64,000 bases of DNA from a virus: IMG/VR virus record IMGVR_UViG_3300020125_000159, positions 1 to 64,000 of that record, one strand, 5' to 3'. The notes under the pieces are model-generated. The model was not told the origin of the DNA. It was given only the letters and a program-made list of their open reading frames with translations, and ran no database searches. The position numbers and the translations under genes are program-made. Of the stretch, positions 1 to 59,181 are shown in pieces; position 1 is the stretch's first letter; every line of letters starts with the position of its first letter.

Positions 1-33
1 TGCGACTACTGTTACTGCAAGGATCAGAAATGA
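1..33 (+). CDS. C-terminal end of a zinc-ribbon microprotein (partial)
   Basis: The first eleven codons read CDYCYCKDQK and then stop. The Cys pattern (CxxCxC) and the ATGA overlap with the next start match the many tiny zinc-ribbon genes nearby, so this is probably the end of another one whose start lies left of the window. Only ten residues are visible, so the call rests mainly on context. Confidence 0.45.
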   Translation, partial: CDYCYCKDQK

Positions 34-221
34 AAAGACATATTGTGGCAAGATGTTTAGACTGTAGTAAGAGCATATGGATGGTTGCTCAGATAACTAA
101 ACATAAAATAGGGTATCCCAAACACAGGATAAAAGTAATTGATTCTAGTCAATACGACAAATTTGGATTCCCTCTAGACTCTACTGCTCGCAAAATGAAG
201 CGTGAAACATTTTATGGTTAA
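30..221 (+). CDS. small CxxC protein, 63 aa
   Basis: Small basic protein starting in the ATGA that ends the preceding gene. It has one CxxC pair near the N-terminus (RCLDC) and no second pair, so it may bind metal as a dimer or not at all. It overlaps the following zinc-ribbon gene by 20 bases, typical of the compact operons at this end. No function is recognised. Confidence 0.5.
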   Translation: MKRHIVARCLDCSKSIWMVAQITKHKIGYPKHRIKVIDSSQYDKFGFPLDSTARKMKRETFYG

Positions 222-432
222 TTATTGCCATAATTACTGTCAAGATTTTAGAGTAAAGCGCGACTATTCTATAGGACCTTATTGTTCAAGTTGTGAGTGT
301 CATGTGTCAGAAGACTCGTTAGTAGGAAATCTAGGCAATCTATGCAGATGTTGTAGGATGGGCGTACGACGTGTCTGTAAACTTCCTCTACATCAACGTA
401 ATAAATTGTGGAAGAAAGTGAAGAGGTATTAA
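202..432 (+). CDS. small zinc-ribbon protein, 76 aa
   Basis: Cys-rich protein with CHNYC, CSSCEC and CRCC clusters followed by a basic tail, consistent with one or two structural zinc sites and nucleic-acid or protein binding. It is the last gene of the short + strand operon at the left edge. Its 3' end overlaps by 4 bases the end of the opposing array of zinc ribbons. No specific family is recognised. Confidence 0.6.
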   Translation: MKHFMVNYCHNYCQDFRVKRDYSIGPYCSSCECHVSEDSLVGNLGNLCRCCRMGVRRVCKLPLHQRNKLWKKVKRY

Positions 433-542
433 AGTCTGCAATCAGGGCAGGCTTTTTCACTATGGTTTTTATCAGTAGTCAGTAAATTTATGAATCCTAT
501 CTTTTGCTTACAATAAAAACATCTGTTTATCTTCTTCGCCAA
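429..542 (-). CDS. zinc-ribbon microprotein, 37 aa
   Basis: TTG-started ORF with the zinc-ribbon pattern CFYC ... CPDC, ending RL-stop. It overlaps the end of the upstream gene (527-652) and is the last gene of the 429-2394 minus-strand array. The spaced Cys pairs, tight overlap and shared orientation support a real gene despite its length. Function is unknown. Confidence 0.55.
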   Translation of the reverse strand: MAKKINRCFYCKQKIGFINLLTTDKNHSEKACPDCRL

Positions 543-652
543 TGATATTCACTAATTGGTTCATGAATGAATTCAAATAGTCTCTGACACGTCCAACTAC
601 AATATTTTCTCCGTCTGTCTATTGGATGATTACATTGTTTGCAGTGTTTCAT
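527..652 (-). CDS. zinc-ribbon microprotein, 41 aa
   Basis: ATG-started ORF beginning MKHCKQCNHP with a second pair CSWTC, then a basic C-terminus. This is a compact treble-clef-like arrangement. The start codon lies in the ATGA that ends the upstream gene, implying translational coupling. Function is unknown. Confidence 0.6.
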   Translation of the reverse strand: MKHCKQCNHPIDRRRKYCSWTCQRLFEFIHEPISEYHWRRR

Positions 653-759
653 TTCTTATGGCATTTACAATTACAAAGTTTATTGTCGCATTTGGCATGA
701 TATCTAGCAGATAGTCCCCATGACATAGAACACCAATAGCCTACAACCTTATCTTTCAA
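649..759 (-). CDS. Cys-rich microprotein, 36 aa
   Basis: TTG start preceded by a good GGAGGA ribosome-binding site. The sequence has one Cys in the middle and a CNCKCH cluster at the C-terminus (six potential Cys/His ligands). It overlaps the next gene through ATGA and the upstream gene by 11 bases. It is probably a metal-binding microprotein of unknown role. Confidence 0.5.
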   Translation of the reverse strand: MKDKVVGYWCSMSWGLSARYHAKCDNKLCNCKCHKK

Positions 760-907
760 TTATTATCCTCCTTCTATTCTTCAATGAATTATGCGGCTTC
801 CTTCTAAGTCGACAACCACAATCTACGCAAAAAGTAATGTCTCTAGACTTTGTGCTGCTTTGACATCTTTTACAATAGCTACTGGTTTCGTAATTTACAC
901 GTACCAA
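749..907 (-). CDS. zinc-ribbon microprotein, 52 aa
   Basis: The product carries YCKRCQ and FCVDCGC, a classical two-knuckle zinc ribbon, followed by a strongly basic tail. It resembles the proteins at 1319-1540 and 9409-9866 in the CxxC-x(12-15)-CxxC-basic layout, so these look like one expanded family. The TTG start directly follows the stop of the upstream gene. The + strand ORF over the same DNA is its shadow. Confidence 0.6.
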   Translation of the reverse strand: MVRVNYETSSYCKRCQSSTKSRDITFCVDCGCRLRRKPHNSLKNRRRIIIER

Positions 908-1042
908 TCAGTCTATCCACTCTCTTTTTCCTTTTCTAAATTTGCCGCAAGGGCAATCGGCGAGCAAGCATTCCTTATTACCGTTAACGTGGTTATCTCT
1001 AGCGTGGCCACATCTCAAATTATTACACCACTGCGATTCCAT
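908..1042 (-). CDS. Cys/His-rich microprotein, 44 aa
   Basis: ATG start with an AAGGAG ribosome-binding site. The Cys/His spacing (CNNLRCGH ... CLLADCPC) suggests one zinc site, followed by a basic tail. It sits in the minus-strand array between the C2H2-like gene and a zinc-ribbon gene. Function is unknown. Confidence 0.55.
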   Translation of the reverse strand: MESQWCNNLRCGHARDNHVNGNKECLLADCPCGKFRKGKREWID

Positions 1043-1044
1043 TA

Positions 1045-1194
1045 TCAAAACTCCTTAGACAGATAATCAGTCTTAGAAAATCCATGAATCTCGTCTAAAT
1101 GTCGTCTTAAATCTTTCACTCCAACTCTGCAATTCATACATGTTATAATGTTATGTTGTTGACATTTGTTTATGAGTACACTATCTTTTGTCAT
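1045..1194 (-). CDS. C2H2-type zinc-finger microprotein, 49 aa
   Basis: The core reads CMNCRVGVKDLRRHLDEIHG: a Cys pair, a helix, then two His. This is the C2H2 finger layout common in archaeal and viral DNA-binding proteins. It differs from the four-Cys ribbons around it and may be a transcription regulator (inference). It starts at the ATG overlapping the stop of the upstream gene. Confidence 0.6.
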   Translation of the reverse strand: MTKDSVLINKCQQHNIITCMNCRVGVKDLRRHLDEIHGFSKTDYLSKEF

Positions 1195-1322
1195 GACTTA
1201 AACTTCACCTTTGTTCGTAGCATTCTACCACAATCAGAACAGCGTTTTTCAGTGGTTATTTTCCATTCACCACAAAACACACAACGTCTATAACCGTGAT
1301 TGTAATATCTTTGAAATTTCAA
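1191..1322 (-). CDS. zinc-ribbon microprotein, 43 aa
   Basis: TTG-started ORF with RRCVFCGE ... RCSDCGRM and a Lys-rich end: a textbook four-Cys zinc ribbon. It overlaps both neighbours by 4 bases. Function unknown; the basic tail is compatible with nucleic-acid binding. Confidence 0.6.
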   Translation of the reverse strand: MKFQRYYNHGYRRCVFCGEWKITTEKRCSDCGRMLRTKVKFKS

Positions 1323-1540
1323 TAATACACCCTCCCCACACTGCGTTTTCTATGTGCTTTTTGTCGTACTGAATTCTTGCATTCAGGACACCTTATGTAG
1401 ATTTTAGATACGACCAGTTGACAATTCCTACAATATGAGTATAAGTCATAGTTTATTCTTCCACAGTTTTTACCTTTCATCATTTCACTGCGACGTCTCC
1501 GCATCTCTGGAGTTCGTATGTACTGGCCAGGTCTAGGCAT
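1319..1540 (-). CDS. zinc-ribbon protein with NUMOD3-like N-terminus, 73 aa
   Basis: The N-terminal part (TPEMRRRRSEMMKGKN) resembles the short basic helix of NUMOD3-type DNA-binding modules. It is followed by a CRNC ... CPEC zinc ribbon and a basic tail. I start it at the ATG at 1540, two bases after the stop of the upstream ribbon gene. The longer open frame to 1606 would read through that gene out of frame. Confidence 0.6.
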   Translation of the reverse strand: MPRPGQYIRTPEMRRRRSEMMKGKNCGRINYDLYSYCRNCQLVVSKIYIRCPECKNSVRQKAHRKRSVGRVYY

Positions 1541-1541
1541 T

Positions 1542-1679
1542 TCAGTAGTATACCTTTCCACGTCCACGTAATGGCCTATCTCTGAGGAGAGAGCCACACT
1601 CATCACAGGCTTTCATGATTGGCCTTTTTTCTCCACACTTCATGCAGAATTTAAATTTGTTATAATCTATTTTTGACAA
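1542..1679 (-). CDS. zinc-ribbon microprotein, 45 aa
   Basis: TTG-started ORF with FCMKCGEK ... CDECGSLL and a GRGK-type basic tail. It is a four-Cys zinc ribbon in the same layout as its neighbours. It begins inside the last codons of the coiled-coil gene upstream and ends two bases before the next start. Confidence 0.6.
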   Translation of the reverse strand: MSKIDYNKFKFCMKCGEKRPIMKACDECGSLLRDRPLRGRGKVYY

Positions 1680-1957
1680 TCATTCAACTCCTTCATTACT
1701 TCCTCAACATTCTTCTTCACTCTAGCTCTAACTTCAGGAGATTCATTTTCCATACTCTTCTCACTACGTTTATACAACACTTCATTCAGCTTTGATTCCC
1801 ATTCGTTTTGACGTTCAAGTTTGTATAATCTTTCGTTTATCTTCTCAAGTTTTTTAGCAAGATCAGTATGGAATTCTTCTTTATCATCCTCCTCTAAATA
1901 GTCGAGCCTTTCTTCTATATCATGAAGTCTGTAATTTATTGTGTCGTAGTCGGTCAT
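1667..1957 (-). CDS. coiled-coil protein, 96 aa
   Basis: Charged, helix-rich protein dominated by heptad-like Leu/Ile spacing (RLHDIEERLDYLEEDD onward) and lacking Cys. It probably forms a coiled coil. I place the start at the ATG at 1957, which forms ATGA with the stop of the preceding gene; an in-frame start six codons upstream is less likely. No function is recognised. Confidence 0.6.
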   Translation of the reverse strand: MTDYDTINYRLHDIEERLDYLEEDDKEEFHTDLAKKLEKINERLYKLERQNEWESKLNEVLYKRSEKSMENESPEVRARVKKNVEEVMKELNDCQK

Positions 1958-2133
1958 TTCACAGACTCCGCCCAATTTATACAGTCAAGGCAGACGAAAC
2001 TAGAATTAGTGATTGAATCTGGATCTTCTTTAAACTTTCCAACTTTTACCTTCTTACAAATCACACATGTCAAAGGCTTTCTCTCATTCTTACGAAATTG
2101 TTCGAATGATTTGTGGGGATTTTCGTACTTCAT
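1954..2133 (-). CDS. zinc-ribbon protein, 59 aa
   Basis: The sequence has TCVICKKVKVG and FVCLDCINW, two Cys pairs separated by about 28 residues: a single zinc ribbon. ATG start in an ATGA overlap with the upstream gene; ATGA overlap again downstream. It belongs to the minus-strand array. Confidence 0.6.
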   Translation of the reverse strand: MKYENPHKSFEQFRKNERKPLTCVICKKVKVGKFKEDPDSITNSSFVCLDCINWAESVK

Positions 2134-2276
2134 GTCGTTTTTATGGAGTGTTCCAGATAGTTATTACAACTACAACGAGTTGCACCAGTATTATGTCTAA
2201 GAAGGCAGTGACCATCGCTATTCTCCGTATCATGCCAGCGCTTTTCATGACGACATCTCACACAAACTTCACTCAA
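2130..2276 (-). CDS. Cys/His-rich microprotein, 48 aa
   Basis: TTG-started product beginning MSEVCVRCRHEKRWHD, with a later CSC motif and several His. A His/Cys zinc site is likely. It overlaps the DUF2080-like gene upstream and the zinc ribbon downstream. Function is unknown. Confidence 0.5.
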   Translation of the reverse strand: MSEVCVRCRHEKRWHDTENSDGHCLLRHNTGATRCSCNNYLEHSIKTT

Positions 2277-2394
2277 CTGGAATACACCTAATCATCTTAA
2301 ACATCCATTCTTTGGGTACAATTACATGACAACTGCCGCCTACTGGTGTAGCCTGTTTAACCACTGGTCCTTCGATTACCCGTCGCGTCTCCAT
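2269..2394 (-). CDS. DUF2080-like small protein, 41 aa
   Basis: The stretch KQATPVGGSCHVIVPKEWM matches the pattern (x-P-x-G-x-S-x-x-V-x-VPKEW) of the DUF2080 family of small archaeal proteins often found on archaeal mobile elements. These have an AbrB-like look and are presumed DNA-binding. It is the promoter-proximal gene of the minus-strand zinc-ribbon array. I am fairly confident of the family; the regulatory role is inference. Confidence 0.6.
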   Translation of the reverse strand: METRRVIEGPVVKQATPVGGSCHVIVPKEWMFKMIRCIPVE

Positions 2395-2490
2395 TGTTGT
2401 ATTTCCTCACTTTTATTGATTGTATTAGGTCGTTGCATGTTTTATTGAATATAACAACATTAATATAAACCTATTACCTAACATAACATT
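2395..2490 (+). promoter_or_regulatory. divergent promoter region
   Basis: AT-rich gap between the minus-strand array and the + strand gene at 2491. It contains a TATA-like TTTATATT (minus direction) and the string TTACCTAACATAACATT just before the + strand ATG. A near copy of that string occurs at about 5860. This is pattern recognition only; no transcription start is known. Confidence 0.4.
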
Positions 2491-2763
2491 ATGTTTACCA
2501 AAAAAAGAGGTGGTGTAACCCAAAACAAAAAGACGTCAGTGGTTGATAAAAACCTTACTGACTATGAAGTGTTCAAAAAGAAGGTATATGCAAAACTGAG
2601 GAGCCATAAATACGGTTTGACATGGCATGAAATAAGGGATAAGGCAAAGCTACAACAGACTGTTCCTAATAATAGATGGACAAAGCAGTTGGAGAGAGAT
2701 ATAGGATTACAACGGGTTAAAGATGCTAGAGGTATGGTTTGGGTGTTAGTTCAATGTCAATAG
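2491..2763 (+). CDS. winged-helix-like DNA-binding protein, 90 aa
   Basis: Basic N-terminus followed by a compact domain (YGLTWHEIRDKAKL ... NNRWTKQLERDIGLQR ... VWVL) whose pattern of helix, helix and C-terminal beta hairpin suggests a winged helix. It is the first gene of the + strand block and overlaps the ParB-like gene, so it may regulate or assist it (inference). No exact family recognised. Confidence 0.55.
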   Translation: MFTKKRGGVTQNKKTSVVDKNLTDYEVFKKKVYAKLRSHKYGLTWHEIRDKAKLQQTVPNNRWTKQLERDIGLQRVKDARGMVWVLVQCQ

Positions 2764-3983
2764 AAAATATTCCATTAACGAAATTAAAGATAAGCGAACA
2801 AAACGTCAGAAAAGAGGTAGGAGATGTTTCTGAGCTTGCGCAATCTATAGCTGAGAAGGGTGTCTTACAACCACTTTTAGTAAGACCTGAGAATGGCAAA
2901 TATGGAATAATTATAGGTTCTAGGAGATACAGCGCAGCAAAGCAGGCTAAGGTGTATGATATACCTTCTACAATTAGAGAGATGAATGACGATGAGGCCA
3001 TGACTATTTCTTTGGTGGAGAATCTACAACGCGGTGATTTGCAACCAAAGGAAACAGCTGAGGCATTTGCATTACTGTTAAAGAATGGTCTATCAGTTAG
3101 GGATCTAGCTAAAAAGGTTGGTAAGAGCAAGACATATATTCAGTCTGTGGCAGGGACTGTCCAGATTCTGGACACTTTAGATAAAAATAATATCAGAACT
3201 GAGTCATATCCGACTGATGACAATAGAAGGTCTGGTAAATCTATTCCAATGTGGCATGTGTCTGACCTGGCTGATGCACTTGAACAAATAAAACATGATG
3301 GGATACATGAGATAACTGATGATAAAATAGTAGAGGTGGCAAAAGGGATATCTCCGCTACCAGAGAAAGAGACGCAAAAAGTGCTAAAGGAGTTCAAGAA
3401 TGATCCAACCAAACCAATAACCGAGGTCATATTCGATGTCCAACATCCTGACTTAAATCTAGGTGGAATGTCATTTGACTCTAGGGACGAAATAGAAGTG
3501 TCCGCCGAGAGTGAAACATCATCTGAAATGAACGGCAAATTTATCTATAATCTAAATCGAATAAACGAAGAATTCGACTTTTACACTATAGGATATGCAA
3601 ATAGTAGCGTCGAGCATTTCATAGAACGTTTAGAAGCCAAGAAAGTGAAGATGGTTATAGATACAAGAAATAGTGTTGTAAGCTTCTATAAGCCAGAGTT
3701 TAACGGCGACGTTATAAAGAAAGAGTTACAGAAAAAAGGAATAAAATATTCGCATATGCCTGAGTTAGGCGTTCCGAAAGAACGTAGACAATCTCTAAGT
3801 AGCGACAGTGACTATAAGACGTTATGGAAATGGTATGATAAAAATGTCATTCCAACACTAAACGTAAACATAAAATCTACAAAAATCGCATTTATGTGTA
3901 GAGAACTCGACCCAACACATTGTCATAGACATCGTATAGCTGCAGCGTTAGAATCGAAGGGAATGAAAAGTCTTGACCTCTGA
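2754..3983 (+). CDS. ParB-like nuclease/partition domain fused to DUF488
   Basis: The N-terminal ~190 residues are ParB-like: LKISEQNVRK, GVLQPLLVRP, IIGSRRYSAA and SLVENLQRGDLQP are the ParB/Srx motifs (CTP/nucleotide-binding fold), followed by a helix-turn-helix (LSVRDLAKKVGKSKTYIQ). A linker leads to a DUF488 domain in about the last 135 residues, with FYTIGYANSS near its start, MVIDTRN, MPELGVP and the C-terminal CRELDPTHCHRHR signature. I start it at the ATG at 2754; an in-frame TTG lies at 2739. ParB domains serve partition, transcription control or nuclease roles. DUF488 is uncharacterised. The fusion suggests that DUF488 is targeted to DNA (inference). Confidence 0.8.
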   Translation: MSIENIPLTKLKISEQNVRKEVGDVSELAQSIAEKGVLQPLLVRPENGKYGIIIGSRRYSAAKQAKVYDIPSTIREMNDDEAMTISLVENLQRGDLQPKETAEAFALLLKNGLSVRDLAKKVGKSKTYIQSVAGTVQILDTLDKNNIRTESYPTDDNRRSGKSIPMWHVSDLADALEQIKHDGIHEITDDKIVEVAKGISPLPEKETQKVLKEFKNDPTKPITEVIFDVQHPDLNLGGMSFDSRDEIEVSAESETSSEMNGKFIYNLNRINEEFDFYTIGYANSSVEHFIERLEAKKVKMVIDTRNSVVSFYKPEFNGDVIKKELQKKGIKYSHMPELGVPKERRQSLSSDSDYKTLWKWYDKNVIPTLNVNIKSTKIAFMCRELDPTHCHRHRIAAALESKGMKSLDL

Positions 3984-9266: not shown

Positions 9267-9412
9267 CCCACTCGCACCAGTGCAGGCAATGTGGCTGCCT
9301 AAGCGATTGCTACGACAACTACTGCACCGCTAAATTCAGTATACCTCGTTGTCGGGTAGGACAATGTAGTACTATAACGGTACCAAAGATAGTTTGGGAG
9401 CTTGCGCTATGA
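9263..9412 (+). CDS. Cys-rich microprotein, 49 aa
   Basis: TTG start within the previous stop (TTGA). Reads QCRQCGCLSDCYDNYC and later CRVGQC, so eight Cys in 49 residues. Ends with ATGA overlap into the next gene. Probably a multi-site metal-binding or disulfide microprotein. Confidence 0.5.
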   Translation: MTHSHQCRQCGCLSDCYDNYCTAKFSIPRCRVGQCSTITVPKIVWELAL

Positions 9413-9612
9413 CATTGGCGACGACGGCATATATGGCCAACAGCAAATACCTACACAACCAAAGATATTGTAGACGCTGCGCAAAGTGGTACGGTCCTGA
9501 AGAATGGACCAAATTCGAATCTCCCAACAAATGCAAATGTGGTAACAGGATGAGGGTCACGCCACGGGGAAAGTGTAGACAGAGAATGAATGAGTTGAGG
9601 GATTACATTTGA
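9409..9612 (+). CDS. zinc-ribbon protein, 67 aa
   Basis: Contains RYCRRCAKWYGPEEW and KCKCGNRMRVTPRGK: a four-Cys zinc ribbon with basic tail, the same layout as the proteins at 749-907 and 9609-9866. I start it at the ATG at 9409 (ATGA overlap). Confidence 0.6.
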   Translation: MTLATTAYMANSKYLHNQRYCRRCAKWYGPEEWTKFESPNKCKCGNRMRVTPRGKCRQRMNELRDYI

Positions 9613-9866
9613 CACTTCCTAGTTGTAAGGGTTGGTGTGACAGATATGGCGGCATAAGATCCTTAAAATCAATTCGCTCTACTGAAGGACGCATATCTTG
9701 TAAATATACTGGTGGGGTAAGGTACTGTCCTCGTTGTGAGAAATTCTTCCTGAAGGAAATAGCAGAACAATTTGATAGAGGAGTTTACTGTCCATGTTGT
9801 CGGACAAAGACCAGGGGTAGGGCTAGCAATGCAAGGGCGGAGGTGTTTGAACTTGTCAGTTATTGA
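9609..9866 (+). CDS. zinc-ribbon protein, 85 aa
   Basis: TTG start in a TTGA overlap. It has an additional Cys pair early (SCKGWCD), then RYCPRCEKFF and VYCPCCRTKTRGRA: a zinc ribbon with an Arg-rich end, clearly paralogous to 9409-9612. Probably nucleic-acid or partner-protein binding. Confidence 0.6.
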   Translation: MTLPSCKGWCDRYGGIRSLKSIRSTEGRISCKYTGGVRYCPRCEKFFLKEIAEQFDRGVYCPCCRTKTRGRASNARAEVFELVSY

Positions 9867-10374: not shown

Positions 10375-10583
10375 CCGAAGAAGAAAAGCTTGCAGTCCAC
10401 CTCTCCCGACGTTCCATTGACATTGTGCTGGTCATACTAAATTTGATATCCACAACTGAAAAAGGCAAACACAAACTACTGGATAAACTCGACATAAATC
10501 AAAGTGACCTGAACGAAATAAACCAGGCCATATCTAAAGCCAAGGAAGTAGCGGACAAACATCTTGGGGAGTTGTACCGTTAA
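10371..10583 (+). CDS. small helical protein, 70 aa
   Basis: TTG start overlapping the RHH gene's stop. All-helical, charged (LSRRSIDIVLVILNLIST ... AISKAKEVADKHLGEL). No family recognised. Its position suggests a partner of the RHH regulator or the following zinc-ribbon protein. Confidence 0.55.
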   Translation: MTEEEKLAVHLSRRSIDIVLVILNLISTTEKGKHKLLDKLDINQSDLNEINQAISKAKEVADKHLGELYR

Positions 10584-10858
10584 TGCAGGTATGTAACAAT
10601 CTATGCCACAGGTCATCAGTACCACGTGGCGACACTAGAAAGAATATCTATGAGACCAGGGTCTATTGTAGACTCTGCGAGTGTTACTTTTTGAAACCAT
10701 ATCCTTCTCACTGTGAATGCTGTACAACGTTAGTGCGACATGTGAAGGGGGGGCGGTTGAGGAAAGTGAAGTATGATTACAGTTATGGTTTTAAGAATGG
10801 TAGGTCGAGATGGATTGTAGAAGACATAAAAGCGGCTGTCGCGGCAGGGAGGCTTTAG
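10583..10858 (+). CDS. zinc-ribbon protein, 91 aa
   Basis: Contains VYCRLCECYFLKPYPSH then CECCTTLVR, a four-to-six Cys ribbon, and a basic/aromatic C-terminus. Same family layout as 9409-9866. It is the last gene of the operon starting at 7493 and converges with the microgenes at 10866. Confidence 0.6.
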   Translation: MQVCNNLCHRSSVPRGDTRKNIYETRVYCRLCECYFLKPYPSHCECCTTLVRHVKGGRLRKVKYDYSYGFKNGRSRWIVEDIKAAVAAGRL

Positions 10859-10865
10859 TCATTTC

Positions 10866-10967
10866 TTATTCTTGCATCTTCACTATCGACATCTTTTCCC
10901 AACATATATAACAATATGATTCATAGTTATCTATATAATTCTCATCACATCCTGAACATTTTTTCAT
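10866..10967 (-). CDS. zinc-ribbon microprotein, 33 aa
   Basis: MKKCSGCDENY ... YCYICWEK gives two CxxC pairs 15 residues apart. A GGAGGAGGAG ribosome-binding site precedes the ATG. It is the last gene downstream of the integrase. Confidence 0.55.
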   Translation of the reverse strand: MKKCSGCDENYIDNYESYCYICWEKMSIVKMQE

Positions 10968-11112
10968 TTCTTATTCTCCTCCTCCTTTTGTCATCCATCC
11001 ATTCATTTTTCCATGTCTTACAATCACATTTAACGCAAGCCATAATCATATAGTCTCGGTATATACGCAGTCCATGATCATTTGAGTCGTGAGGACAATC
11101 AGCGCATTTCAT
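10945..11112 (-). CDS. zinc-ribbon microprotein, 55 aa
   Basis: MKCADCPHDS ... ACVKCDCKTW then a very basic tail. The start lies six bases after the integrase stop, so it is probably co-transcribed with the integrase and could modulate excision (inference only). Confidence 0.55.
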   Translation of the reverse strand: MKCADCPHDSNDHGLRIYRDYMIMACVKCDCKTWKNEWMDDKRRRRIRNEKMFRM

Positions 11113-11118
11113 TTCTTG

Positions 11119-12291
11119 TTATTCCACCTTCTTCCTCATCTGCTCCTTGAATGCTTCGAACTCCATCTTCAATAAGGCTATCTGGCTATACACTTCGGCT
11201 GACTTTTGTTGCGATATACGTAGTTCATTCAACTCTTTTTGTAGTGTTGATATCTGGTCATCTTTATCTTCTAATTTAGTCTTAACGTCCGCTCCATGTG
11301 CTTCTATTTCTTCATACGATAGATATGTTAAGTAGGGTTCGATCTTATGAAAAAATGCTAATCTTTCACGTTCCGTCTTTCTGTAGTATGTACTACCTGA
11401 ATGGCCTATGAAGCCCTCACTAAAATCTTGATATCCTAAGTCTGAAATCGTTGTCTTTACAAATCGTCTGAATGAATGGAAAGTGATTTTATGGTGCCTT
11501 CCTTTATTACTATCTCTTGCCCCATATCCTGCTCTATCTAGTGATGCGCTAAAATGTCTTGATATGGCATGATACATATATTCTATTTCGACTCCCTGGA
11601 ATTTACCACTGCTAAAAAAGTAGTCAGTATCTTTGAAAGGTCTAACTACTGGTTTATTGTAATTCATTCTTTCTCTCTCTCTATATTTCTTCCACAACAA
11701 TAACTGTCTCGTACACTCTTCAGTCAGGTAGACAGTCCTTGCAGTTTCTGTCTTTGTGTTTTCTGCTTGTAATCGAATTTTACGTTTTTCAAAGTTAATA
11801 TCACAAAGTCGTATTGAGAGTGCTTCTGATGCCCTCATACCAGTAGCGGCTAATAACAAAGCATAAGTGAATAGCCTGACAGACGATTGACATGATTGTA
11901 TGATTTTCCTTACATCTGCCTTCTCTAATGCTTCTAGTTCTGGTTTTTTCCTTTTCACATTTCGAACTCTTAATTTAAAAATTGTCCGACTGATTGTTAT
12001 GTTGTTATACTCTAGGTAGACTTTGGCAGCAATCACTCTATTATTAATGGTAGATTTCGCTAAATTTCTTGATTGTAAATCCTGTCTGTAAGCGGTAAGA
12101 GCTCCATAAACATCAAACCTTTTTGTTTCAAGTGAAACGATAAAGCTATCTAGGTCCGTGTTGTATACTCTAGTTAGAAAGGAGTTGAAGTCGTTTAATC
12201 TCTGGGCATATGCCGTTCCAGTACCAGGCGAATCACCTGATACAACCTTACAAAAGTCCTCGATAGGCTTCGATAATACCAGTCGTTGCAT
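11119..12291 (-). CDS. int: tyrosine recombinase / integrase, 390 aa
   Basis: An N-terminal SAM-like core-binding domain (residues ~10-110) is followed by a catalytic domain with all expected residues: Arg in TGMRASEAL (R153), Lys in ENTKTETART (K180), HSFRRF (H272, R275), FIGHS (H297) and the nucleophile in STYYRKT (Y302 or Y303). Residues ~335-390 form a coiled coil rich in Lys/Glu, an add-on that may multimerise the enzyme. It would integrate or excise the viral genome. Start at ATG 12291. Downstream - strand microgenes follow closely. Confidence 0.9.
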   Translation of the reverse strand: MQRLVLSKPIEDFCKVVSGDSPGTGTAYAQRLNDFNSFLTRVYNTDLDSFIVSLETKRFDVYGALTAYRQDLQSRNLAKSTINNRVIAAKVYLEYNNITISRTIFKLRVRNVKRKKPELEALEKADVRKIIQSCQSSVRLFTYALLLAATGMRASEALSIRLCDINFEKRKIRLQAENTKTETARTVYLTEECTRQLLLWKKYRERERMNYNKPVVRPFKDTDYFFSSGKFQGVEIEYMYHAISRHFSASLDRAGYGARDSNKGRHHKITFHSFRRFVKTTISDLGYQDFSEGFIGHSGSTYYRKTERERLAFFHKIEPYLTYLSYEEIEAHGADVKTKLEDKDDQISTLQKELNELRISQQKSAEVYSQIALLKMEFEAFKEQMRKKVE

Positions 12292-14781: not shown

Positions 14782-15510
14782 ATGCTCGACGAAAGTGTTC
14801 TAAAACTTACATTCGGGGTTGGAATTTCTTTCTATAATGATGTAAGGGGCTTGGAAAGATGTCTTAGATCGGTATACGGCAATATTGAGTATGTTCTTTG
14901 TGTTGATGGTAGGTACAGCTACAATAAAGATTTTGAGGGACCACTATCGACAGATGGTTCGCGTGAATACATACGTAGCATTGCACATGAGTTTAAGGGT
15001 CGTGGTATCTCATTAATTGACGCGCCAGATCTGACAGAAGCAAAGAAGAGACAGGTCTATGTTGATGCCACAAAGGATTATGGAATAGACGTTCTTCTAA
15101 TTCTTGACAGTGACGAATATGTTTTCTGCGCTGATTGGTGTGCTTTTCGCCATGAATGCTATCAAGCAATGGTTGTCCGCGATCATGGTTCATGGCAGAT
15201 CTACAACATACCTTTTCGTGAACCGATGAGTCGACCGCGTCTGTGGTTCCAACCATATAAAATTGAGGTGGGACCGTGCCATTATGATTTCACTCTTAAG
15301 GACGACGTAGAATGTAGAGAAATCAATCTAGGTGGAGATATAGTTCATGAAATTGGTAACATTGTGATTTCACATAAACACGACTTACGAACTGTAGAGA
15401 GTCAGTTCGCTCGTGAGAATTGGGAAAAACAGCAGGTAAGAGAAGAGGACATTCACAGAAACGAGTTGAGAGAAAAAATGAAAGCTGAACGTAAGGCTAG
15501 ACAGACATGA
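14782..15510 (+). CDS. GT2-like glycosyltransferase, 242 aa
   Basis: A GT-A fold is indicated by FGVGISFYNDVRGLERCLRS, YVLCVDGRYS, RQVYVDATKDYGID and the DxD-type LILDSDEYVF metal motif, followed by a His near the end (VISHKHDLR). It would transfer sugar from a nucleotide-sugar to a virion or host glycan. It overlaps the epimerase gene by ATGA, so the two probably work in one sugar pathway. Confidence 0.75.
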   Translation: MLDESVLKLTFGVGISFYNDVRGLERCLRSVYGNIEYVLCVDGRYSYNKDFEGPLSTDGSREYIRSIAHEFKGRGISLIDAPDLTEAKKRQVYVDATKDYGIDVLLILDSDEYVFCADWCAFRHECYQAMVVRDHGSWQIYNIPFREPMSRPRLWFQPYKIEVGPCHYDFTLKDDVECREINLGGDIVHEIGNIVISHKHDLRTVESQFARENWEKQQVREEDIHRNELREKMKAERKARQT

Positions 15511-16484
15511 ACTACCTCGTGACAGGTGGCTATGGTTTTATCGGCTCACATCTAGTCGAGAAGTTGATTGAGTCAGGCCATAACATAACAATCTTAGACA
15601 ATCTGAGCAATGGGCATTTAGAGAATCTTGCCAATATACACAACGAGACTTTCTATAGAACGACAGACGTACAAGACTGTGATAAGGTGGACTTTAGTTC
15701 TAGAGGAGAAAGAATAAAGTTCGACGGAATTTTTCATCTTGCTACTGCCCCACGATCCGCAAGTCTCACGAATCCTAAACAAGATATTGAGGTTAATTGT
15801 AAGGGCATGATCGCAGTTCTCGAGCTAGCAAGGAAACATGATGCTAAGGTCGTGTTTACAAGTAATAGTGGTATATACGGTCCTATGTCATATTATGATG
15901 ATATTGGTGTAAGTTTTCGGAATATAGGTATAAACGAATATGGACATAATGTGCCGACAACTCCTTATGATGCCGATAAACTAGTAGCCGAATATTATTG
16001 TAAGATATATCATAATGTCTATGGTGTCAGGTCCTGTGTCGTGCGATTCGCTACTGTGTATGGCGAACGTCAGACAGTGAATGAAGTATTGAACTGGCGC
16101 CCACTGGTTGCAACGTTTGTTAAGAATGTAGTGAACAATGAGGAAGTAGTGGTTAATGGTGATGGCGAACAAACCAGGGATTTAATCTATGTTAAAGATG
16201 CAGTTCAGGGAGTCATAAAGGCAATGGACAGTAATATCAATGATGCCGATATATTTTTACTGTCTACAAACACTGAGACTTCTGTTAATACTATTCTGAA
16301 GACTGTAGAAGCAATTGCTAAAAATAATGCTAAGATGATAAAATTCACAGAACCATTGAAAGGGGATATCAAAAGAATGAGGTATGACTATTCTAAGGCT
16401 AATAAAGTATTAGGATTCGAGCCACAATATAGTTTACAACAAGGGATTAGAGAAATGGTTAAACAGTTGCTGGTACAAACTTAA
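15507..16484 (+). CDS. NAD-dependent sugar epimerase/dehydratase (extended SDR), 325 aa
   Basis: GGYGFIGSHLVEKLIESG is the GxxGxxG Rossmann loop; ILDNLSNG follows; SNSGIYGP and YDADKLVAEYY give the Ser/Tyr-x3-Lys catalytic set; TRDLIYVKDAV is the typical C-terminal substrate-domain motif. It is GalE/UDP-glucuronate-4-epimerase-like. It supplies or converts a nucleotide sugar, presumably for the adjacent glycosyltransferases. The 3' end overlaps the opposing gene by 26 bases. Confidence 0.85.
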   Translation: MNYLVTGGYGFIGSHLVEKLIESGHNITILDNLSNGHLENLANIHNETFYRTTDVQDCDKVDFSSRGERIKFDGIFHLATAPRSASLTNPKQDIEVNCKGMIAVLELARKHDAKVVFTSNSGIYGPMSYYDDIGVSFRNIGINEYGHNVPTTPYDADKLVAEYYCKIYHNVYGVRSCVVRFATVYGERQTVNEVLNWRPLVATFVKNVVNNEEVVVNGDGEQTRDLIYVKDAVQGVIKAMDSNINDADIFLLSTNTETSVNTILKTVEAIAKNNAKMIKFTEPLKGDIKRMRYDYSKANKVLGFEPQYSLQQGIREMVKQLLVQT

Positions 16485-17337
16485 CGTAGGGATCTTTCGT
16501 TCCTACTACTAGCGGTATGTTAGGCCCATTATCTGATATTTTCATGTGCCAGAAGAAGGCAGAAAAATCACACCAGATTGGTATTCCTAACTCATGCATT
16601 TCATTACTCATTACGACATCATTGTTCATTCCTTCATGGGGTGGTAGCCCCATAATTTTATCATCAAGACTGAATGATAACTTCTCAGCAACATCTCTTC
16701 TTAGGATTGGGAACGGCTCACCCATAAATCGAACTGGTACTGGCTGTTGTTGTGACATTACTCGTTCGTATTCTTTTGAGCCAACTAGCATAGACCTGAA
16801 TATGTAGGGCCTTCTATTTCCAGTTGGTTGCATTGACACATTAAGAAAGTCTCTCTTTTCAGTATTGTCGTAATTTGCTACACCACAAACAAAACCATAA
16901 TCCTTCTCCTCGATATGTCTAAGTAATTTGTTTATGCTCTCGCTATTTACTACAAGGTCGTCACATAAAATTGCTAGGTGTGTGTATTCTTTATATTGCT
17001 CCAAGAATGCTTTGCGCATTAATCTGTTTGTCTGATGGATGGGATACCAATAATATATTAATTTGTCAAACCTAGTGAGATATCTATCTACTGCTTCATC
17101 AAACTGCTTCAGATCATGTGCTTTTTTGATTATCACAAGTAGTTTCACATGACTAGGTATTGTGATAGATGATGTATAACTTGCTGTCTTTTCAACTATA
17201 AGTAACTTCACATTGCCTTTAATATTACCGTCAAAGATTACCTGATCACCTGGACTTATCTGACTATGTGAACCATCGGAAATGCTTACTGTATAGACTT
17301 TGCCATCTATATCCATTTCTTCGAAAAATTTTATCAT
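16459..17337 (-). CDS. glycosyltransferase-like protein, 292 aa (paralogue 1)
   Basis: After ~65 extra N-terminal residues comes VKLLVIIKKAHDLKQFD, then YTHLAILCDDLVVN (acidic pair in a DxD position), GFVCGVANYDN, MGEPFPILRRDVAEKLSF and IPIWCDFSAFFWHMK. These fit a GT-A-type glycosyltransferase fold: metal-binding acidic pair, acceptor loop, late His. It is closely related to the next gene and more distantly to 20086-20745. Donor and acceptor are unknown; virion or host-surface glycosylation is likely. Confidence 0.65.
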   Translation of the reverse strand: MIKFFEEMDIDGKVYTVSISDGSHSQISPGDQVIFDGNIKGNVKLLIVEKTASYTSSITIPSHVKLLVIIKKAHDLKQFDEAVDRYLTRFDKLIYYWYPIHQTNRLMRKAFLEQYKEYTHLAILCDDLVVNSESINKLLRHIEEKDYGFVCGVANYDNTEKRDFLNVSMQPTGNRRPYIFRSMLVGSKEYERVMSQQQPVPVRFMGEPFPILRRDVAEKLSFSLDDKIMGLPPHEGMNNDVVMSNEMHELGIPIWCDFSAFFWHMKISDNGPNIPLVVGTKDPYVKFVPATV

Positions 17338-18017
17338 GTTGCTGGCACAAACTTAGTAAACGGCGGACGAGTGCCTACAACCAAAGGAATAGGATGGGCC
17401 TCTGACGTCTTCATATGGTAGAAGAAGGCCGAAAAGTCACAATAGATTGGTATATGTAAATCATAAGCTTCGGTGGACATTACCACGTCGTTGCAACAAC
17501 CCCAGGACGGATCAGAATATCCATTCATTCTATCATCAAGATCAAATGAAAAGCGCTCAGCAACATCCCGTCTTATTATTGGGAACGGTTCCCCCATATG
17601 AAGTATTTCGATAGGTTGAGGTTGAGACAAACACCATTTATGTTGTTCAGATCCAACTTCCACCCAGATATACATGTAGTTTCTTTTTCTACCAGTAGGA
17701 TATAGGGATACATTCAACATGTTTTTCCTTTCAGGCGTGTTGTCTACATTAGCAACACCACAAACAAAGCCATATCCATTCTCTGTGTGTTTTAATATTT
17801 TATTCACACTTTCTTCATTAACAATCAAGTCGTCGCAGAGTATAGCTAAGTGGGTATACTCCTTACTGAGCATGAATGCCTGACGTAATAAGGGCCTAGT
17901 TTGGTATATTGGATACCAGTAAAAGAATATCTTATCATATTTGTATAACACATCATCGACGGCTTTATCAAAGGCGGGTAGGTCGTGTGCCTTTAAAATC
18001 GCGACTAATAATCTCAA
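17334..18017 (-). CDS. glycosyltransferase-like protein, 227 aa (paralogue 2)
   Basis: Core sequence parallels the neighbouring gene: AILKAHDLPAFD, YTHLAILCDDLIVN, GFVCGVANVDN, MGEPFPIIRRDVAE and IPIYCDFSAFFYHMK, and both end with KFVPAT. It lacks the extra N-terminal domain. Overlaps the downstream paralogue by 4 bases, so a recent tandem duplication is likely. Divergent from the fibre gene at 18055. Confidence 0.65.
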   Translation of the reverse strand: MRLLVAILKAHDLPAFDKAVDDVLYKYDKIFFYWYPIYQTRPLLRQAFMLSKEYTHLAILCDDLIVNEESVNKILKHTENGYGFVCGVANVDNTPERKNMLNVSLYPTGRKRNYMYIWVEVGSEQHKWCLSQPQPIEILHMGEPFPIIRRDVAERFSFDLDDRMNGYSDPSWGCCNDVVMSTEAYDLHIPIYCDFSAFFYHMKTSEAHPIPLVVGTRPPFTKFVPAT

Positions 18018-20085: not shown

Positions 20086-20745
20086 ATGTGGGGTAAGAAA
20101 AATAAAGAGGTCAATCCTCTGATTTGTTCAGCTAGCCCTCGTGACATCCCAGAATTCCTTGAAGCCGCTGCAAAACTACCTGCAGATAAACTCTTTGCGA
20201 AATACCATACCGAAAGAGAAGCATATCGTTTACTACGCAAATACTTCCTAGGCGCTAAGCAGTATACACATATGGTACTACTTAGCGATGACCTAATTGT
20301 CACCCCAAAAGAGTATGAAATGCTTTTGAATGATGTTAAGGAGTTTGACTATCCAGTAATCGCAGGCACATGCAATATACAATATGACACGCCTAACGAT
20401 TACGTTACTGGTAAAACCATACGTTATGGTAGATTTGTGGACTTATACAAAAAGGAAGAGTTATTCAAAGGCGATCCTATCAAGTTCTGTGAGTTTGACG
20501 GCTTTGCGCTTACATTCATAAGGAGAGATATTGTAAAGAAGATAGAATTTCATTCCAAGATGTATACTAGCACTGCATTCGATTATGCTTTTGCGCAAGA
20601 GTGTTTAGATCGAGGTATACCCCAACGCGTCGATACTCGTGTCAAGATGCTTCATTTGGCATGCAGGAAGGGCGCAGCCAAACAGGAAAATTGGGGCGTC
20701 GGCATCAAGCCGCCGACAATGATATTTGAGCGATACAATCCTTAA
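20086..20745 (+). CDS. glycosyltransferase-like protein, 219 aa (paralogue 3)
   Basis: Shares the core of the 16459/17334 pair: YTHMVLLSDDLIVTPKEYE, YPVIAGTCNIQYD, a GFALTFIRRDIV segment, and FDYAFAQECLDRGIPQRVDT followed by VKMLHL. GT-A-type metal pair (SDDL) and terminal His are present. It lies among virion genes, so it probably glycosylates a capsid/tail protein or the cell surface. More divergent than the other two. Confidence 0.65.
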   Translation: MWGKKNKEVNPLICSASPRDIPEFLEAAAKLPADKLFAKYHTEREAYRLLRKYFLGAKQYTHMVLLSDDLIVTPKEYEMLLNDVKEFDYPVIAGTCNIQYDTPNDYVTGKTIRYGRFVDLYKKEELFKGDPIKFCEFDGFALTFIRRDIVKKIEFHSKMYTSTAFDYAFAQECLDRGIPQRVDTRVKMLHLACRKGAAKQENWGVGIKPPTMIFERYNP

Positions 20746-54788: not shown

Positions 54789-54959
54789 TTGTTCGACAAG
54801 AAGCCTCAAGCGGTTCAGGTAAAGTGTGGAAGTTGTAGAAAGAAATTTCTACCTGAAGCCATTAAGGTTATGACTACCATTAGAGGCTTCATGGTCTACG
54901 CATGTCCCAATTGCCATACTGTGTTCAACGTACAGTCTAACTCAGTGATTGCTAAGTAG
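54789..54959 (+). CDS. zinc-ribbon protein, 56 aa
   Basis: TTG start two bases after the upstream stop. VKCGSCRKKFL ... YACPNCHTVF is a standard zinc ribbon. Converges with the tail-completion gene (8-base overlap). Confidence 0.6.
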   Translation: MFDKKPQAVQVKCGSCRKKFLPEAIKVMTTIRGFMVYACPNCHTVFNVQSNSVIAK

Positions 54960-55476: not shown

Positions 55477-57684
55477 TTAACGAAGACGTCTTGAAAGTCC
55501 TAACATTTTACTGACTATTGAATTTACATTATTCAATCGTGCAGTATGTCGTCCTGGAGGCCTAATCCTTCTATGGTCAGAGATTATTCCTTCTATTTGT
55601 ACTGTATCATTCATAGAGAATCTGAATGTCATTTGTCCACGACCTACAGAGTCTGAGATACGGATTTGGGCTAATACCTTTTGTGCATGACGGAACTCTA
55701 ACGGTTCAATCATGTTTATACTTGGTCTAGGTAATCTATGTTGTGATTCAGTAATACCTACAGTATCGCCTATGAAACGTCTAACTCGTCTACTTATAGA
55801 TTCGGTAATATTCATTTTTGTCGTAGTGTAAATCTTTGTTGTGGGAGTAAGGTCAGTCCAAATACTTCTAAATATTTTCTTTATTCGTGTGGCAATGTCA
55901 GATATTGATATACCTGTTTCTATTATGATTCTGGGTATAATCCTTGTTTTTGATAAAGCACTAGATATTGATATAGTCTGTGTTGATAGTGTTATTTTGT
56001 ATAGTTTTCGTGTTAGTATTGACTCTAATGACGCAATGGTTTCTGTCAGACGTCTATTATACTTACCTAGTTTTGTTAATAATTCAGATATCGTTATAGT
56101 CTGCGTAGAGAGTTTTGGTTTAGCATTTCTTAATTGAGAATCCGTTATCGATATAGTGTCCGAGATTGACCTGGTTTTTAGTGGTCCACTACCAGCTAAT
56201 GCGTATAGGAGAGTCCGTATTGATGTTATTCTAGCTTTTAGTCCATACTTCAGAGTTCTGACTGTGGATAATAATCTCTTTCTTAGATAATATTTGAGTG
56301 TCCTTTGTGTCCCAGCAATTCTTTTTCTAAGATAATATTGTAACGTTCTTTGTGCTACAATCCTAGATTTTAAAGAATATTTTACAGTTCGCTGTGTTGA
56401 TAGTAACCTAGCTTTTAATCCATATTTGACGGTTCTAGCAGTAGAGGCTAGTCTTTTCTTTAATGAATATTGTAATGTGCGTGCAGTACTTGCTAATCTC
56501 TTCTTTAGACTATATTGTAACGTTCTTTGTGTTGTTAAAAGTCTTAATTTTAATGCATATTTGACTGTCCTCTGCGTTGTAAGTAGTCTCTTTTTTAATG
56601 CGTATTTTATTGTTCTCTGTGTTGATAACAGTCTAGCCTTTAAACCATATTTGATTGTTCTAAGTCCTACTCTTCTAGCTTTGAGTCCGTAGATTAGAGT
56701 TCTTTGGGTACTTGCTATTCTTTTCTTTAGGGCATATTGTATTGTGCGCTGTGTTGATAACAGCCTTTTATGTAGATAGTATTTTACTGTTCTAACTCCT
56801 GCAATTCTTGATTTTAAAGCATAGTTTACGGTTCGTGTGGTACTAGCCAGTCGTTTTTTTAATGCATAATTTACAGTCCGCGCAGTACTGGCTAATCTCT
56901 TATGAAGAAAATATTTTACCGTTCTAGCAGTACTGGCTAATCTGGTTTTTAATCCATAATTTATAGTTCTAGCAGTAGATAAAAGTCTCTTCTTTAACCC
57001 ATATTTTATAGTTCTTGCAGTACTGTTTAGGTTTGAAACTGTAGTGAATACTAATGTATCTGTTGCTGCGCTAATGAATGAAGCACATGTTGTTGCACTT
57101 GCTTCGGTAGTACCGTCAAAATAGAATGTATCAGTGAATGCAGTTGAGGCTCCCTGAGTTGTCTTAAATATTATCTCAAATACTATTACGTCACCGACCT
57201 GAGTTGTTACTGCGGAACCTGAAAATGTCCCGCTTAGTGCTACCTCTGAAGTACTAGCCTCTGAGAGTGTTATTCCAGTTGCACTATTAAGTATATTTCC
57301 AACTTTTGAACCGCCAGCACTTGGACGCCACACATAACATGTTACGTTAGCGGTTGCACTTGTAGTTGTAGGAAAGTTTGCACTTGCAGAACTTTCCTTC
57401 GCGGCAAAAGAAAAAGTCCATGTCTGTGCGCTTATAGACGTAGAAGATAAGGGAGGACTTACAAACTTAGTAAAGTAATAATTATTTGCACTAGTATTTG
57501 CGAGAGAGGTGACTGCTATACTTGTCTGTAATGTACCAATAGTGCTATTCATCAGACGGTTTACTGTTTGGGCATCACCGCCAGTACTAGTAACTATAGT
57601 TAGTGCAGACTGTGTGGCTTGAGGAAGTGTTCCGTGTCCTACTAATGTGTTACTTGAGGCATGAAGATATAATTTTGTCGCTAT
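55477..57684 (-). CDS. repeat-rich virion adhesin with probable ATA start, 735 aa
   Basis: The region 57684-57553 encodes ATKLYLHASSNTLVGHGTLP and continues in frame into the ATG at 57552. This is the normal N-terminus of a common phage fibre module (MATKLYxH...GTLP...), so the start is probably ATA at 57684. Residues ~45-215 are a jelly-roll (YYFTKFVSPPLSSTSISAQT; VIVFEIIFKTT). Then come 19 copies of a ~15-residue RTxKYxLKxRLxST repeat, followed by STQTITISELL-type repeats as in 30426-33434 and a basic C-terminus. Confidence 0.6.
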   Translation of the reverse strand: MATKLYLHASSNTLVGHGTLPQATQSALTIVTSTGGDAQTVNRLMNSTIGTLQTSIAVTSLANTSANNYYFTKFVSPPLSSTSISAQTWTFSFAAKESSASANFPTTTSATANVTCYVWRPSAGGSKVGNILNSATGITLSEASTSEVALSGTFSGSAVTTQVGDVIVFEIIFKTTQGASTAFTDTFYFDGTTEASATTCASFISAATDTLVFTTVSNLNSTARTIKYGLKKRLLSTARTINYGLKTRLASTARTVKYFLHKRLASTARTVNYALKKRLASTTRTVNYALKSRIAGVRTVKYYLHKRLLSTQRTIQYALKKRIASTQRTLIYGLKARRVGLRTIKYGLKARLLSTQRTIKYALKKRLLTTQRTVKYALKLRLLTTQRTLQYSLKKRLASTARTLQYSLKKRLASTARTVKYGLKARLLSTQRTVKYSLKSRIVAQRTLQYYLRKRIAGTQRTLKYYLRKRLLSTVRTLKYGLKARITSIRTLLYALAGSGPLKTRSISDTISITDSQLRNAKPKLSTQTITISELLTKLGKYNRRLTETIASLESILTRKLYKITLSTQTISISSALSKTRIIPRIIIETGISISDIATRIKKIFRSIWTDLTPTTKIYTTTKMNITESISRRVRRFIGDTVGITESQHRLPRPSINMIEPLEFRHAQKVLAQIRISDSVGRGQMTFRFSMNDTVQIEGIISDHRRIRPPGRHTARLNNVNSIVSKMLGLSRRLR
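56172..57016 (-). repeat. 45-bp (15-aa) RTxKYxLKxRLxST tandem repeats, 19 copies
   Basis: Units of 14-15 residues, strongly basic, with invariant Arg-Thr, Tyr, Leu and Arg; synonymous sites diverged. Confidence 0.85.
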
Positions 57685-58807: not shown

Positions 58808-58981
58808 TTATATCAGTGTTTCTAATAGTGCGTCGTTATAATATGAATTAAAACCAGTCGGGTATATCTTGGTCGTTATCTCCTTACCACAAACAACACA
58901 GTAAAAGATGATTTTGGTTTCTGATACCTTGACTGCGTCACAGACTCTGCCACATTTATGAACAAAACTATTTGGTATCAT
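58808..58981 (-). CDS. zinc-ribbon protein, 57 aa
   Basis: HKCGRVCDAV ... FYCVVCGKE gives two Cys pairs (CxxxC and CxxC). ATG overlaps the stop of the upstream zinc protein. Lies just upstream of the connector gene. Confidence 0.55.
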   Translation of the reverse strand: MIPNSFVHKCGRVCDAVKVSETKIIFYCVVCGKEITTKIYPTGFNSYYNDALLETLI

Positions 58982-59181
58982 ATCATTTTCTTTTTTTGTT
59001 CGGTCGTGAACTTTGCGTTATCGTTCTCAGGAAATATTTTATTGGTAGGAGTATAATCGCATGTACCAGTTACGGTACGACACCATGAACAAAGTATCTT
59101 GTATTGAGTATTAGACGTGCGCACCCATGTCTTTGTGCTAGATGCGCAGTCGTGAGGAAATTCTACTCGCTTAGATACCAA
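58978..59181 (-). CDS. Cys-rich small protein, 67 aa
   Basis: Contains FPHDCASSTKTW, LCSWCRTVTGTC. Probably zinc-binding with the three Cys plus His/Cys nearby. TTG start 36 bases after TAGTTCCC. Function unknown. Confidence 0.55.
   Translation of the reverse strand: MVSKRVEFPHDCASSTKTWVRTSNTQYKILCSWCRTVTGTCDYTPTNKIFPENDNAKFTTEQKKKMI

Follow-up and report, generated by a model that had tools for sequence, protein, structure and literature searches.

A minus-strand array of small zinc-binding genes

The first 64,000 nucleotides of the IMG/VR virus record IMGVR_UViG_3300020125_000159 (here called the window) are part of a 92,695-base tailed-virus record and carry on the minus strand, from position 2394 down to 429, an uninterrupted run of 13 back-to-back open reading frames (ORFs) of 36-96 codons each. 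The best explanation of this locus is an operon that encodes a battery of minimal zinc-binding proteins together with an AbrB-like protein and a coiled coil. Its features are listed below, with families A and B denoting two zinc-protein families that are described in the next section.

2461..2470, minus: putative TATA-like sequence (GTTTATATTA) upstream of the operon, picked out by eye
about 10 nucleotides ahead of the first ATG of the operon, minus: GTGAGG, a putative Shine-Dalgarno-like element, also picked out by eye
2269..2394, minus: gene 1, 41 residues, AbrB/DUF2080-like (GGSCHVIVPKEW), scoring 20.2 bits against NCBIfam DUF2080 and so missing the curated cut-off of 22
2130..2276, minus: gene 2, 48 residues, family B zinc protein (CxxCxH....H...C....CxC), from a profile built on viruses of ammonia-oxidising archaea (AOA)
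1954..2133, minus: gene 3, 59 residues, two CxxC, weak zinc-ribbon match
1667..1957, minus: gene 4, 96 residues, acidic coiled coil, not a zinc protein
1542..1679, minus: gene 5, 45 residues, family A zinc ribbon, C-terminus VYY
1319..1540, minus: gene 6, 73 residues, family A zinc ribbon, C-terminus VYY
1191..1322, minus: gene 7, 43 residues, family A zinc ribbon
1045..1194, minus: gene 8, 49 residues, C2H2 finger related to Ros/MucR, above the Pfam ROS_MUCR gathering cut-off (26.9 bits against 25.4) over 44 of 123 profile positions, in the finger region only
908..1042, minus: gene 9, 44 residues, family B zinc protein, from a profile search
749..907, minus: gene 10, 52 residues, family A zinc ribbon
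649..759, minus: gene 11, 36 residues, Cys-rich (CxxxxC, CxC)
527..652, minus: gene 12, 41 residues, treble-clef-like, 19.7 bits against Pfam DUF2116, whose cut-off of 26.8 it does not reach
429..542, minus: gene 13, 37 residues, two CxxC
202..432, plus: convergent ORF of 76 residues, a distant family A candidate that ends in VKRY, as do the members in AOA virus L030, and that the family A profile search of AOA virus records missed

An earlier, sequence-only reading of this DNA had described about fifteen array genes, thirteen of them on the minus strand, linked by ATGA/TTGA overlaps and nearly all with CxxC pairs. The 13 minus-strand genes stand as described, and the larger total is reached by including two plus-strand ORFs that adjoin the array, at 30-221 and 202-432, the second of which resembles family A. 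CxxC is present in 9 of the 13, and genes 1 and 4 are not zinc proteins at all. Overlaps of four nucleotides, ATGA or TTGA, are found at only about 5 of the 12 junctions, the others being overlaps of 8-16 nucleotides or gaps of 0-2 nucleotides.

When overlaps of up to 16 nucleotides and gaps of up to 5 nucleotides are allowed, all 13 ORFs form a single chain with 9 CxxC members, whereas the longest chain in 300 dinucleotide-preserving shuffles of the region has 4 genes and at most 4 with CxxC. The 16-nucleotide limit was set after the junctions had been seen and is thus fitted to the observed operon, although the shuffles were given the same limit. With a stricter overlap limit of 8 nucleotides, which we dropped as too strict, the chain shortens to 6 genes, a length that shuffles can equal. 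Codon-usage scoring trained on the structural genes is uninformative for the array ORFs and lends them no support.

Under a strict definition of Cys-rich micro-ORFs (two or more CxxC, a length of up to 140 residues and no long ORF covering them) there are 15 in the window versus 0-4 in shuffles, and the figure of more than 20 given by the sequence-only reading holds only under a looser definition. The strict density is 2.3-9.9 per 10 kb in this virus and two related viruses, and 0-0.6 per 10 kb in stretches of T4, HVTV-1, HTVC008M, P-SSM2 and SPO1. As to the further arrays that had been proposed, those at 54789, 62087 and 62894 are single genes, but there are pairs at 58808-59181 and 10866-11112, and a tandem pair at 9394-9866 with another family member at 10583-10858.

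The terminase of the virus is 39% identical to that of the Nitrososphaera provirus Pro-Nvie1, a tyrosine integrase is encoded at 11119-12291 and a multicopper oxidase gene lies at L002:18653-19879 on the minus strand (record 78653-79879). Multicopper oxidases of the MCO1 type are known from soil AOA viruses (PMC11849493, PMC9859776), a type for which the present gene is a candidate. From these matches, the host is most likely a Nitrososphaera-like AOA and the virus is probably temperate. Directly adjoining the array, at 2757-3983 on the plus strand, is a ParB N-terminal domain fused to DUF488. Single-protein searches with this fusion, the terminase and the capsid found no relatives; an alignment of nine terminase sequences was successful.

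A zinc-ribbon family common to viruses and hosts

Proteins of family A, the commonest family of the array, carry two CxxC pairs separated by 6-20 residues and, after these, a near-invariant Arg and a basic tail; in 20 viral sequences the four Cys residues are invariant and R33 is nearly so. A profile made from four array paralogues retrieved a five-gene tandem array in AOA virus L030 (604-1427) and members in many others, and by profile search 17 of 23 AOA virus records contain the family. The L030 array is directly followed by a C2H2 gene homologous to gene 8, the same order as in the window. Homologues with conserved Cys residues, whose absence from related genomes the sequence-only reading had named as fatal to its proposal, are therefore present in related viruses. 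Beyond the array, the window encodes the following members of families A and B.

9394..9612, plus: 72-residue family A variant (YCRRC...CKCGNRMRVTPRGK), with a TTGA overlap with the next gene
9609..9866, plus: 85-residue long-form family A protein (CKGWC...YCPRC...CPCC), ending in VSY
10583..10858, plus: 91-residue long-form family A protein
10945..11112, minus: 55-residue family B zinc protein, from a profile search, adjoining the integrase gene

The same profile finds family A in all 61 sampled genomes of the Nitrososphaeraceae, the host family, at 1-36 copies each and with E-values down to 1e-16; in a sample of 121 genomes from across the phylum, 36 have it. Judged by homology, viruses and hosts have family A in common, and among the host archaea it is widespread. 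The host forms, MTCKGICIRHKAQKPVGSGRYASGQKRCQICEIFIKWDGLWCPCCGYRLRTKPRNLKYK (long) and SRIDYNFFNYCSTCELKYPKQILRCKDCNQKVRTRPWHR (short), both align with viral members: the proteins at 9609-9866 and 10583-10858 have a CxxxC resembling the third, N-terminal CKxxC of the host long form, and genes 5, 6, 7 and 10 lack it and resemble the host short form. One closed host chromosome has 27 matches, which are dispersed. The canonical host copy is nearly invariant, some host copies carry stop codons, and some of the host homologues are syntenic; the neighbours conserved around host copies (Dph2-like and UbiD-like, by eye) give no functional clue.

Family A is absent from curated collections: no Pfam or NCBIfam model reaches its trusted cut-off. 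The best score against Pfam DZR is 22.7 bits, below the gathering cut-off of 27.3, Pfam PF01020 (L40e) and PF03604 (Rpo12) have no match at E up to 1 in the array proteins scanned, and PHROG matches are weak. Searches of host genomes with PF03604 and PF01020 were of little use because these models barely detect the host proteins themselves. A family A profile compared with the PDB has among its best matches YfgJ, Rpo12/RPB12, Fin and L40e (E 0.002-0.05). AlphaFold2 predicts a two-hairpin ribbon for gene 5 with a mean predicted local distance difference test score (pLDDT) of 75.8 and gives a poor model for the long form (pLDDT 61.4); structure searches match L40e, Nop10, Spt4 and TFIIE-alpha, none significantly (E 0.18 and above). 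Rpo12, ribosomal L40e and TFIIE-alpha have the same zinc-ribbon fold as that predicted for family A, a similar spacing and a basic C-terminal stretch, but their matches to family A are weak and the Pfam models of the first two do not detect it. Taken together, these comparisons point weakly to proteins seated on the transcription or translation machinery.

Small zinc proteins are well represented in archaea. The CPxCG proteins, abundant there, are, like family A, shorter than 100 residues with two CxxC knuckles, and one of them, Brz of Halobacterium, is a small zinc-finger protein that acts on transcription, being required for that of its neighbour (PMC2253796); other examples are HVO_2753 and HVO_0758 of Haloferax, as cited in PMC13370731. 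By inspection, genes 5, 6, 7 and 10 fit the definition of PMC2253796 (a length below 100 residues and two CPxCG-related patterns with a spacing of 7-40 residues). The CPxCG proteins differ in being host-encoded, with no viral arrays described, and their likeness to family A is one of pattern. Closer to the present case, the Zn-ribbon arCOG08677 ranks fifth by frequency among the arCOGs of thaumarchaeal integrated elements, with 12 counts (PMC6563490, Table 1), so that Zn-ribbon genes were already known to be common in AOA mobile elements. The small proteins concerned, which come from elements of the same group of hosts, are probably the same family or an overlapping one, going by the name only; arrays or a C-terminal motif are not described in the parts of that account considered here.

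Two more families enlarge the picture. A profile built from AOA viruses finds 21 members of family B among them. In a 99.7-kb AOA virus contig, about 14 tandem small ORFs (L008:15348-17867) form family W, whose proteins have CxxC...CWSC and a conserved helix AIxxEMxEML and make up a zinc array distinct from that of the window. Families A, B and W each occur in AOA viruses and W has a run of its own, so the arrays arose from different families.

Selection, viral tails and the rest of the record

Among Cys-rich micro-genes of AOA virus contigs, the median ratio of nonsynonymous to synonymous substitution rates (dN/dS) is 0.24 in 120 pairs with dS of 0.1-2, the pairs being non-independent, required to be at least 55% identical and mostly from families other than A. 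Cys residues are retained in these pairs at 704 of 735 positions, versus 4769 of 6631 for other residues. Purifying selection, whose absence the sequence-only reading would likewise have counted against its proposal, is thus found for this class of genes. Together with the shuffle tests and the homologues, these results mark the array ORFs as genuine genes, conserved and functional, that belong to a kind already known and are unusually arranged.

The rapid duplication and diversification that had also been proposed is not supported in that form. The paralogues of the window are strongly diverged (19-38% identity to gene 5), dN is well below dS in orthologous pairs, and a weakly supported tree of family A intersperses the window paralogues among sequences from other viruses and from hosts, a pattern that speaks against recent duplication. 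On this interleaving we rejected a recent tandem duplication of the family A genes of the window; their sequences are those of old, diverged paralogues, not fresh duplicates, and a fresh expansion is plausible only for the different family in contig L008.

A feature of the viral copies is their C-terminus. In viral family A, 13 of 27 proteins end in Tyr, mostly as Arg-Tyr, compared with 1 of 54 host family A copies (Fisher p 6e-7) and 9 of 555 long ORFs. A second viral set, from other parts of AOA virus records, has 8 of 13 ending in Tyr and is an only partly independent repeat, since some of its members are orthologues of the first set; the data come from about six virus lineages in all, and the p-values are too small because sequences were treated as independent. 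Within these comparisons, the C-terminal Tyr or Arg-Tyr is enriched in viral family A copies only. It was considered as a by-product of the TTGA overlap and this was rejected: several Tyr-ending genes stop with TAA or TAC-TGA, so that the Tyr is not imposed by the overlap. The VYY ends also raised the idea of proteasome HbYX docking, which we abandoned because most viral ends are Arg-Tyr and do not fit it. We know of no Arg-Tyr tail in archaeal small CPxCG proteins. Both the arrays and this viral tail appear to be new, and no report of the tail was found in the literature searched.

Several other genes of the record deserve mention. A DNA methyltransferase ORF with an intein-like insert lies at L003:14114-16390 on the minus strand (record 90114-92390 region), and an HNH_3 endonuclease ORF (E 6e-7) in another frame, at L003:15370-16098 on the same strand, lies almost exactly over the insert, so both frames appear to be used there. 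Two collagen-like proteins with Gly-X-Y repeats are encoded at L002:16181-17239 (record 76181-77239), and a tail-region protein at 55477-57552 of the window has many repeats resembling STARTVKYxLKxRL. By eye, glycosyltransferase-like and sugar-epimerase-like genes lie amid the structural genes at 14782-18017 and 20086-20745, among them those for two similar neighbouring proteins at 16459-18017.

Candidate roles of the array

The role we favour, tentatively, is that the host-related zinc ribbons are small regulators of host transcription or translation that dock via a common C-terminus. The array ribbons would fold around zinc, the ribbon and basic tail would attach to the machinery of host transcription or translation or to the nucleic acids of that machinery, and the C-terminal Arg-Tyr would dock on one common partner. 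During infection, several paralogues may in this way regulate the expression of host or viral genes, either in competition with one another or each for particular genes. A regulatory role is the most likely one given the weak machinery matches, the basic tail, the likeness of gene 8 to the Ros/MucR regulators in its finger and the precedent of Brz. Several points weigh against it: the array proteins have no known target; the Rpo12 and L40e sequence matches are weak (E 0.005-0.05), the structure matches fall short of significance and the predicted models are of middling quality (pLDDT 76 and 61); the dN/dS pairs were selected for identity and come mostly from non-A families, with none for the operon of the window itself because no relative close enough was found; and the Tyr tail is absent from about half of the viral members.

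In a broader and more doubtful version, AOA viruses would have taken a ubiquitous host zinc-ribbon family, trimmed it to 40-70 residues, expanded it into arrays of overlapping genes and fitted it with a virus-specific C-terminal Arg-Tyr for docking on a single host receptor, yielding combinatorial, interchangeable micro-regulators that reprogram the host.

Host takeover and counter-defence, the roles suggested by the sequence-only reading, are conjectural here. A counter-defence battery, in which every micro-protein has its own host defence protein to block or distract and the variation of arrays follows that of the defences, would fit the variability of the arrays, with different families in different viruses, their position outside the structural genes and the weak match of one member to a PHROG Lar-like restriction alleviation protein (E 0.0068). 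We nevertheless consider it unlikely, as the homologues are ubiquitous and partly syntenic host genes, an unusual pattern for a protein dedicated to anti-defence, selection on the orthologues examined is purifying rather than positive, and no link to defence genes turned up, though no search was aimed at them. Equally improbable in our estimate is mimicry, by which viral copies keep the ribbon, swap the tail and compete within the complex of the host protein as dominant-negative or re-targeting subunits. Direct homology to the long and short host forms, the near-invariance of the canonical host copy and the systematic difference in tail between virus and host all speak for such mimicry, but no function is known for the host protein and, once the Cys residues are set aside, identity among the array members, and between them and host forms, is only about 20-40%.

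Buffering of zinc or copper during infection is suggested by the Cys-rich proteins and the multicopper oxidase of the same record, but is very unlikely for proteins that, unlike metallothioneins, have only 4-7 Cys at ribbon spacing and, beyond the metal site, a conserved Arg and a basic tail. That the array consists of chance ORFs or functionless duplication debris, as their very small size, the codon scoring and the stop codons in some host copies might suggest, is scarcely credible, being contradicted by the shuffle tests, the homologues with conserved Cys and the dN/dS values.

AOA viruses influence soil and marine nitrification, and their non-structural genes are nearly all unexplained. 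The present analysis names a conserved, uncurated protein family common to these viruses and their hosts and provides evidence of selection on such micro-genes. Zinc-ribbon genes this small are worth looking for in the gene calls of these genomes, and the C-terminal Arg-Tyr is a short, testable feature for finding the partner.

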